This document shows positions 62,817-63,424 of a DNA stretch of 64,000 nucleotides, piece after piece. The stretch's first letter is position 1. Each line of letters begins with the position of its first letter. Source of the stretch: Pararhodobacter zhoushanensis (GTDB lineage Bacteria > Pseudomonadota > Alphaproteobacteria > Rhodobacterales > Rhodobacteraceae). The notes under the pieces are model-generated. The model saw only the letters and a program-made list of their open reading frames with translations. It did not search any database and had not been told where the DNA came from. The translations under genes and the position numbers were made by a program. The stretch covers positions 810,358 to 874,357 of the forward strand of contig NZ_REEZ01000001.1 of assembly GCF_003990445.1 (NCBI RefSeq). The letters are read 5' to 3'.

Positions 62817-63362
62817 ATGCCTTCGTGTCGTCGCCCTCGATTGCCCGGCGCCACCCTCTTCTTCACCGTCAGGCTGGAAGAGCGTGGCAGCACGTTGCTG
62901 GCCGACGAAGTCGCCCGGCTTCGCCTTGCGGTCGCAGCAACGCAGCGCGAACGCCCCTTCACCATCGACGCCTTTGTCGTGTTGCCCGACCACCTGCACT
63001 GCGTCTGGACCTTGCCTGCGCGCGACTCGGATTATTCGGTGCGGTGGGGCGCGATCAAGTCGCGGTTCACGCGGCAGCTGCGCGACGGATGTAGGGTGGG
63101 GTTCAACCCCACCGAGGCGCAGCGCATGGGAAAAGCGGTGGGGTGGAACCCCACCCTACGGCGCTCACGCTCGAAGATCGCCAAGGGCGACGCCGGGATC
63201 TGGCAACGGCGGTTCTGGGAGCACCACATCCGCGACGATGCGGATTACCACGCGCATCTGTCGTATTGCTGGAACAATCCGGTGAAGCATGGGCTGGTCG
63301 GACAACCGGAAGAATGGCCGTTCTCGTCAATTCACCGGGATCGGGCCCGCGGTCAAGCGTAG
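62817..63362 (+). CDS. REP-associated tyrosine transposase (RAYT) with internal REP sequences
   Basis: 181 residues from ATG 62817. RRPRLPGATLFFTVRLEERG at the start, the HUH-like histidine pair in VVLPDHLHCVWTLP (about 48-61), GAIKSRFTRQLR, GIWQRRFWEHHIRDDADYHA and the tyrosine motif LSYCWNNPVKHGLVGQPEEW define a RAYT of the IS200/Y1 family. Such enzymes move REP palindromes. Residues 92-116 (CRVGFNPTEA ... AVGWNPTLRR) come from two REP palindromes in opposite orientation inside the gene. The stop codon TAG at 63360 lies within the first REP of a second pair. Unlike insertion sequences, it is a single-copy domesticated-type gene beside its targets. Confidence 0.92.
   Translation: MPSCRRPRLPGATLFFTVRLEERGSTLLADEVARLRLAVAATQRERPFTIDAFVVLPDHLHCVWTLPARDSDYSVRWGAIKSRFTRQLRDGCRVGFNPTEAQRMGKAVGWNPTLRRSRSKIAKGDAGIWQRRFWEHHIRDDADYHAHLSYCWNNPVKHGLVGQPEEWPFSSIHRDRARGQA
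63091..63159. repeat. REP pair (BIME-like) inside the RAYT coding sequence
   Basis: A 23-base REP starting GTAGGGTGGGGTT and ending AACCCCACC (63091-63113) and its inverted copy (63137-63159, differing at one base) enclose 23 bases. Each REP is itself a near-palindrome, so both arms are read in frame as V-G-F/W-N-P-T. The total insertion-like segment is a multiple of three and keeps the gene open. Confidence 0.9.
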
Positions 63363-63424
63363 GGTGGGGTTTCACCCCACCCCCACTCACGCAAGCGCAA
63401 AGGTGGGGTGAAACCCCACCCTAC
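63359..63424. repeat. REP pair (BIME-like) at the RAYT 3' end
   Basis: Two 23-base REPs in inverted orientation (63359-63381, GTAGGGTGGGGTTTCACCCC then ACC; and 63402-63424, its reverse complement) flank a 20-base spacer. They would form a large stem-loop with a 23-bp stem. The RAYT stop TAG is at the second base of the first REP, and lepA ends 5 bases after the second, so the element likely also terminates both convergent genes. Confidence 0.9.

Follow-up and report, generated by a model that had tools for sequence, protein, structure and literature searches.

How does a transposase gene come to carry, within its own reading frame, the very repeat on which its product is predicted to act, and what keeps that repeat there? 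The question is raised by a gene near the end of a 64,000-nucleotide stretch of the Pararhodobacter zhoushanensis genome (the window), in which the initial annotation had noticed two 23-base REPs, in inverted orientation and one mismatch apart, inside the open frame of a REP-associated tyrosine transposase (RAYT, or TnpAREP). Both are present as described (Table). The gene is a RAYT by its match to profile NF047646 (E 3.2e-48, 163 bits against a cut-off of 80) and by its HUH and Tyr-xxx-NP motifs, and the only solved structure with a sequence match is that of E. coli TnpAREP (PDB 4er8; E 1.4e-41); that its product binds and cuts single-stranded REP DNA is a prediction. A methionine equivalent to that of the start codon opens most of the homologues inspected, and the gene has the flanking, genome-recurrent REPs expected of a RAYT, here a 3′ pair of a repeat with 43 copies. 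The layout by which the next REP furnishes the RAYT stop codon is found in 102 of the 197 RAYT ORFs described below. The neighbours at this end of the window are presumably an AI-2E-transporter-like gene and the 3′ part of lepA, the latter on the opposite strand.

Table. Coordinates of the RAYT gene and its parts in the window
Feature	Position	Strand	Remarks
RAYT gene	62817..63362	+	ATG at 62817; stop TAG at 63360-63362
HUH motif codons (His59-Leu60-His61)	62991..62999	+	DHLH, aligned with 4er8
Helix alphaC codons (RWGAIKSRF)	63042..63068	+	Residues 78-79 and 82 differ according to REP type
Internal REP 1	63091..63113	+	GTAG foot, 8-bp stem, loop TCA; within RVGFNPT
Spacer between internal REPs	63114..63136	no strand	Fast divergence: 17/23 sites variable in four syntenic orthologues
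Internal REP 2	63137..63159	-	Inverted, loop TCC; within VGWNPTLR; 1/23 sites variable in four syntenic orthologues
Start of strand beta4 (I-W-Q-R)	63198..63209	+	Residue following WQ differs according to REP type
Catalytic tyrosine codon (Y150, YCWNNP)	63264..63266	+	Predicted by homology, from alignment with 4er8
3′ REP	63359..63381	+	GTAG foot (63359-63362) gives the RAYT its stop codon
Second REP of 3′ pair, inverted	63402..63424	-	From sequence

The first internal REP reads GTAGGGTGGGGTTCAACCCCACC and the second, on its own strand, GTAGGGTGGGGTTCCACCCCACC; as two inverted, GTAG-footed REPs that lie in frame, are separated by a short spacer and recur between genes, they qualify as a REPIN. 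A search of this genome for the pattern GTAGGGTGGGRTNNNAYCCCACC gives 43 matches, against none for its reversed control, which rules out a chance palindrome; of 19 genomes in the genus (the window genome among them), six have the pattern and 13 lack it. The genome-wide count proposed in the initial annotation therefore confirms the repeat as genuine, and the palindrome is plainly present outside genes, which removes the objection foreseen there that it might be missing from other intergenic regions. None of the other 41 copies lies clearly inside a gene, all 43 having been judged by covering ORFs and by a codon score that is itself weak, wrong frames reaching 0.36 and true frames falling to about 0. 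Copies up to about 110 nt from either nominal boundary of a well-scoring ORF were counted as outside the gene (L242, L244, L251, L257, L259, L266, L270, L273, L277, L278 and L279), and three copies in L261, together with others, fall in negatively scoring ORFs. Besides the RAYT pair, two copies lie deep in a well-scoring ORF (L275, 1017 aa) that has no Pfam match; on the opposite strand, a 498-aa open frame with an end that we take to resemble RpoB stops at a TAA (1497-1499), and this pair (1501-1554) starts 1 nt past it. A general tendency of REPs to land in genes is rejected on this basis, which was partly judged by eye, for the window genome only. The internal pair is not the present master copy either, its loops being unlike the commonest genomic loop. 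A second RAYT of the same genome (G000:C13:29059-29631; L005/L020) likewise has an inverted pair in frame in this loop, but its REPs are of a different type (GTCGGGGT), the first of them having GCAG as its foot.

RAYT loci were gathered from 19 genomes of the genus (11 with a RAYT), from 394 genomes of the family (129 with a RAYT, ORFs being taken only from the matches listed) and from named loci (the best 80 of at least 558 confirmed relatives); 13 of the first 241 loci have no intact RAYT ORF, and at least three of those are REP-only loci. The analysis yielded 197 distinct RAYT ORFs, of which a few are doubtful (L219, L236 and the second L161 frame among them). In 97, the loop that separates IK.RF from WQ.R contains a REP, single or paired, in frame; this proportion is not a prevalence, since the source list was ranked by likeness to the window gene. 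By source, an internal REP is present in 56 of 130 family-set loci and 47 of 80 named loci, both lists again favouring such likeness. A further 81 of the 197 have no insert (a loop of up to 20 aa), and 19 have a long loop without a detectable REP. There are over ten stem types among the internal REPs, with arms that include GGTGGGGT, GGCGGGGT, GCCGGGCT, GGTGGGTT, GTCGGGGT, GTCGGGCT, GATGGGGT, GGTGGGCA(G), GGCGGGAC and GCCGGGGT; the finder, which tolerates a single mismatch, accepts 157, seven with a mismatch in the stem and 150 without. The 96 RAYTs with GTAG-footed internal REPs are arranged as +- (52), - (28), + (9), -+ (5) and ++- (2), minus-only genes outnumbering plus-only ones (28 vs 9; binomial P 0.003).

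A class-wide sample yielded matches in 18 of 385 genomes, three of them in the window's own family; six of the other 15 gave seven readable ORFs, two of which (L295 and L288) are distant relatives only, and none of the seven has an internal REP. One record titled as an Exiguobacterium profundum MAG (L141, CP059262.1) holds a Rhodobacteraceae-kind RAYT with K-type REPs, and its title may be wrong. A tree built without the loop, from which seven short rows and then two more were left out, needs 29-33 changes between presence and absence, with 100 of its 185 inner branches open and the starred branches forcing only three. The N-terminal halves give dN/dS values of 0.10-0.27 in ten hand-picked pairs, because of which these look like functional proteins, and the idea that they are dying genes can be rejected. 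On the evidence of these sequences, the internal REP is a recurring architecture of Rhodobacteraceae RAYTs and not a one-off self-hit. The interpretation in the initial annotation, an in-frame insertion of the substrate into the transposase gene, holds in part: the insert is the gene's own REP, in frame and in a variable loop, but it is neither a private event nor a simple insertion into a constant protein.

The type of REP inside a RAYT gene is closely matched to the REPs around it. The arm of the internal REP is that of the flanking REP in 59 of the 71 loci having both (shuffled mean 11.3, maximum 23 in 10,000 shuffles), the remaining 12 having another REP type in the flank. We also counted exact copies of four REP types in 66 genomes, type E lying outside these counts, and for the 45 assigned to one type the internal type is the strict commonest of the four in 42 (shuffled mean 11.4, maximum 23); the match persists in 40 and 38 of the 45 when two or four copies are subtracted as the RAYT's own (shuffled about 10-11). 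These figures leave out G126, which has both A and B RAYTs, and include three genomes typed from decayed loops (G092, G062 and G199) and two scored as B despite arms that are mainly GGCGGGAC (G067 and G172). The match fails outright in G067, G361 and G092, is lost after subtracting two copies in G386 and G172, and after subtracting four in G237 and G029. G092 (L054) also bears on the other objection foreseen in the initial annotation, homologues with the same peptide but no REP elsewhere in the genome: this one homologue lies in a genome with no exact copy of its REP type (type D), but its internal pair is decayed. Comparison shows a cognate match between gene and genome. The internal REP is not needed for the association of RAYTs with REPs, because the ORFs without an insert are so numerous (81 of 197) and many of them are still flanked by REPs. 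In G036 there are 138 type-C REPs and no type-C RAYT was found, the only RAYT found being K-type and without an insert, and this is either a large orphan REP population or one whose driver went undetected.

The locus beside lepA provides a near-controlled comparison of the form of the segment with the genomic REP population. Ten Pararhodobacter RAYTs adjoin lepA and nine of these also adjoin the AI-2E gene (L015 lies at a contig end, with 19 matching residues). Identity to the window protein is 55-88% for the nine other lepA-site RAYTs, and the set compares orthologous positions, not near-identical genes. Four have the A form (G000, G005, G012 and G018), and their genomes contain 39, 45, 26 and 36 exact A REPs and 0, 0, 7 and 0 K REPs, respectively; one has the B form (G015), with 14 B REPs and no A or K REPs; and five have the K form, without an insert (G001, G002, G003, G010 and G013), with 90, 22, 3, 14 and 22 K REPs. 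The commonest tested REP type is that of the segment in all ten lepA-site genomes, the tests of G013 being limited to types A and K and G003 (L017) being assigned to K on its RLIK motif, since no flanking REP was found there. Alongside the K-type RAYT at this site, G001 contains type-A REPs too: 12 are exact, and the degenerate pattern gives 37.

According to the alignment to 4er8 and the published numbering, on which the placement rests, the insert lies between the residues equivalent to 86 and 89, after alphaC and before beta4; E. coli TnpAREP, which has no internal REP, has two residues there (87-88) where the window RAYT has a 37-residue stretch (87-123), and the alphaC and W-Q positions of the two proteins align on either side. 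Residue 82 of the window RAYT corresponds to E. coli K82, described as contacting a REP stem base (PMC8266576), and its W-Q to E. coli W94/Q95, the region described as reading GTAG (PMC6006769). We compared alignment columns between 66 different-type and 67 same-type pairs, using 137 columns and the 184 of 197 ORFs that are long enough (37 of those without a REP type), and found that residues 78 and 79 and the position following WQ show the strongest link to REP type (P 1.5e-6, 1.6e-5 and 1.3e-4, uncorrected, with descent handled only by keeping the pairs disjoint); residue 2, residue 82 and the position two before W come next. All 23 type-K RAYTs have RLIK where most G-rich types have GAIK, the motif to which residues 78-79 belong, and the position following WQ is occupied by R, P or K.

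Closely related RAYT backbones are paired with different alphaC-loop segments, bearing other REP types or none. The two halves of L067 (type A) and L125 (type D) are 92% and 90% identical, and those of L021 and L022 are 88% and 92% identical, falling to only 70% in one 60-nt window next to the loop (the fourth of the N half); the loops of the latter two are 156 and 57 nt long, L021 being of type E and L022 without an insert. Among the 26 nearest two-REP pairs, 19 differ in type by a 7-base criterion, several of them by stem variant only. The 77-aa loop of L101, from Roseicyclus marinus, holds a type-A REP followed by a complete type-D pair, and is likely to be an intermediate of a type change. 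When homologues are aligned, as the initial annotation had suggested, the loop is mostly 19-20 aa without a REP and 23-77 aa with one, but the picture is not that of a simple insertion into an otherwise unchanging protein: the loop and the adjacent recognition residues differ as one REP-type-linked segment. Both this position and a joint change of segment and REP type are shown by comparison.

The DNA of the internal REPs is maintained as such, because its third codon positions are about 95% identical between relatives against 50-61% in the sequence around it. In 15 same-type pairs, identical third positions number 104 of 109 in each of the two REPs (95%), 80 of 159 in the spacer (50%) and 657 of 1233 in the N half (53%), although these values are inflated by a finder that demands a foot and pairing and so misses decayed REPs, and by the further demand for the same arm in this set. 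The seven same-type pairs among the 26 nearest pairs, which were picked regardless of REP type, give 46 of 49 and 48 of 49 in the REPs (94% and 98%) against 23 of 38 in the spacer (61%) and 350 of 597 in the N half (59%). The bias is bounded by the 19 long loops in which no REP is detected, and the four syntenic A-type orthologues, which are less exposed to it, vary at five of 46 REP sites and at 206 of 470 sites in the remainder (P 6e-6). Among those five sites, a stem G-to-A change and the C-to-T change of its partner occur together, distinguishing L011 and L012 from L001 and L010; copies outside the pure GGTGGGGT form number 46 in the genome of L011 (72 minus 26) and 18 in that of L012 (63 minus 45), and four each in those of L001 (43 minus 39) and L010 (40 minus 36).

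The reading that we prefer, and to which we give an even chance of being correct, is that a REPIN sits in frame in the gene of its cognate RAYT, at the alphaC-beta4 loop, and is kept as a DNA element that this RAYT would recognise. The RAYT would have placed its own REP into a tolerant loop beside its recognition surface, and the resident pair would then have been kept as a DNA element recognised by the encoded enzyme. Recognition residues and substrate would thereby be inherited together and exchanged, presumably by recombination, as one unit, such that a RAYT acquiring the segment would also acquire the matching REP; this linked inheritance may be beneficial.

It is also conceivable, though we think it rather unlikely, that the internal REPs are tolerated self-hits without function, arising from preferential copying near the RAYT's own gene into a loop that accepts them and kept fresh by recopying. 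The loop is indeed variable (11 to 77 aa), the differing configurations make several independent insertions likely, the stop codon is another site at which REPs are placed, and the internal REPs of subclass 2.4 have been judged to be of little impact in the description by Quentin et al. 2018 (PMC6006769). Recopying fits poorly, however, with the distribution of the TCC loop, found in the internal minus-REP of 11 of the 16 type-A cases but in only three of the 43 copies in the window genome, one of them the internal copy itself, because of which the internal copy looks inherited across genera and not overwritten. The reading phase is moreover near-fixed (68 of 70 plus-REPs and 76 of 87 minus-REPs), the placement coincides with the REP-type-linked segment, and no other REP copy in the window genome is clearly inside a gene.

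We regard as improbable that the pair serves autoregulation, keeping RAYT expression low either as a long mRNA hairpin or as a site for binding or cleavage on its own gene. Transposases are commonly kept at a low level, and the hairpin envisaged in the initial annotation as a regulatory device is at least a possible structure, the RNA of 63085-63165 folding at -53.7 kcal/mol (z -6.6, with 0 of 200 shuffles as low) and the DNA giving z -7.0. A plain hairpin would nonetheless not need a type matching genome and flanks, and 81 of the 197 ORFs do without the insert; because single REPs are common, with minus-only genes exceeding plus-only ones by 28 to 9, a GUAG-footed mRNA hairpin is not what is kept. 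Least credible, and in our view very improbable, is a protein-level role in which the REP-encoded peptides (RVGFxPT, xGWNPTLR and their type-specific equivalents) help to recognise the REP, for while alignment places the insert next to the DNA-binding helix and beta4, its phase is near-constant and the Trp of VGWNPT accompanies the recurring type-A TCC loop, the third codon positions are conserved too, which a peptide would not need, and RAYTs with a single REP or no insert also go with REPs.

REPs inside RAYT genes are already published. In-frame REPs are described in tnpAREP genes as a feature of subclass 2.4 and of some members of subclass 2.8 (Quentin et al. 2018, PMC6006769), and subclass 2.4, which is group 4 of Bertels, resembles the present case in having REPs of its own kind in frame, of variable length and between the HUH and Tyr motifs, in its long and double-footed REPs and in its flanking REPs. 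It differs as described in that source in several respects. Its insertion domain, of which little impact was expected, lies between beta3 and alphaC, whereas that of the window RAYT falls between alphaC and beta4 by alignment; its HUH motif is NH[IFV]H whereas that of the window RAYT is DHLH; its hosts are mainly Cyanobacteria and Bacteroidetes whereas the RAYTs here are from Rhodobacteraceae; and the insert of the window type sits between residues tied to REP type. The HUH motif is DHLH or DHMH in 153 of our 197 ORFs, and the eight commonest entries include NHMH (5) and NHLH (4), 18 ORFs being unparsed and three not listed. E. coli TnpAREP has been placed in RAYT group 2, or subclass 2.2 (PMC8266576, PMC6006769), for which DHLH, WE and YIHYNP motifs, a short alphaC-beta4 insertion and a 33-aa tail are given; the DHLH of the window RAYT agrees with this and its WQ and YCWNNP differ from the published Table 1; E. 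coli TnpAREP itself has WQ.

The REPINs or BIMEs described by Bertels and Rainey 2011 (PMC3116915) are likewise inverted, GTAG-footed pairs dispersed in genomes, but the window pair is translated inside a transposase. Di Nocera 2013 (PMC3733652) reports REPs inside other genes and stop codons contributed by REPs, and these and the Rickettsia palindromic elements discussed there share with the present case palindromic repeats in frame within ORFs and REP ends serving as stops; the Rickettsia-type elements are however described from many unrelated genes, whereas the REPs of the window genome are clearly inside a gene only in the RAYT. Nunvar 2010 (PMC2817692) uses none of six related terms, no paper in an open-licence library joins REP, RAYT and Rhodobacteraceae, and the titles and opening lines of abstracts listed there by related searches include no report of the present coupling of internal REPs with REP type. 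What is new relative to subclass 2.4, as far as its published description extends, is the different position in the protein, the coupling to REP type and the Rhodobacteraceae hosts.

These observations speak to the question of how RAYTs and REPs maintain and alter one another. With more reserve than for the preferred reading of the window pair, and on balance with some doubt, we suggest that Rhodobacteraceae RAYTs consist of a stable catalytic backbone and an exchangeable specificity segment, comprising alphaC, the loop and the start of beta4, that carries its own target, and that exchange of this segment would reprogramme the REP population of the genome. The target-recognition domains of restriction enzymes are swapped in a similar manner, but the RAYT segment would differ in having the target sequence packed inside it. 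Gene-internal REPs, earlier deemed to be of little impact in one subclass, recur here at a different and functionally loaded place. The REP type is recorded in the RAYT gene itself, nature offers many changes of type, and a few residues together with one loop form a candidate code for REP specificity.
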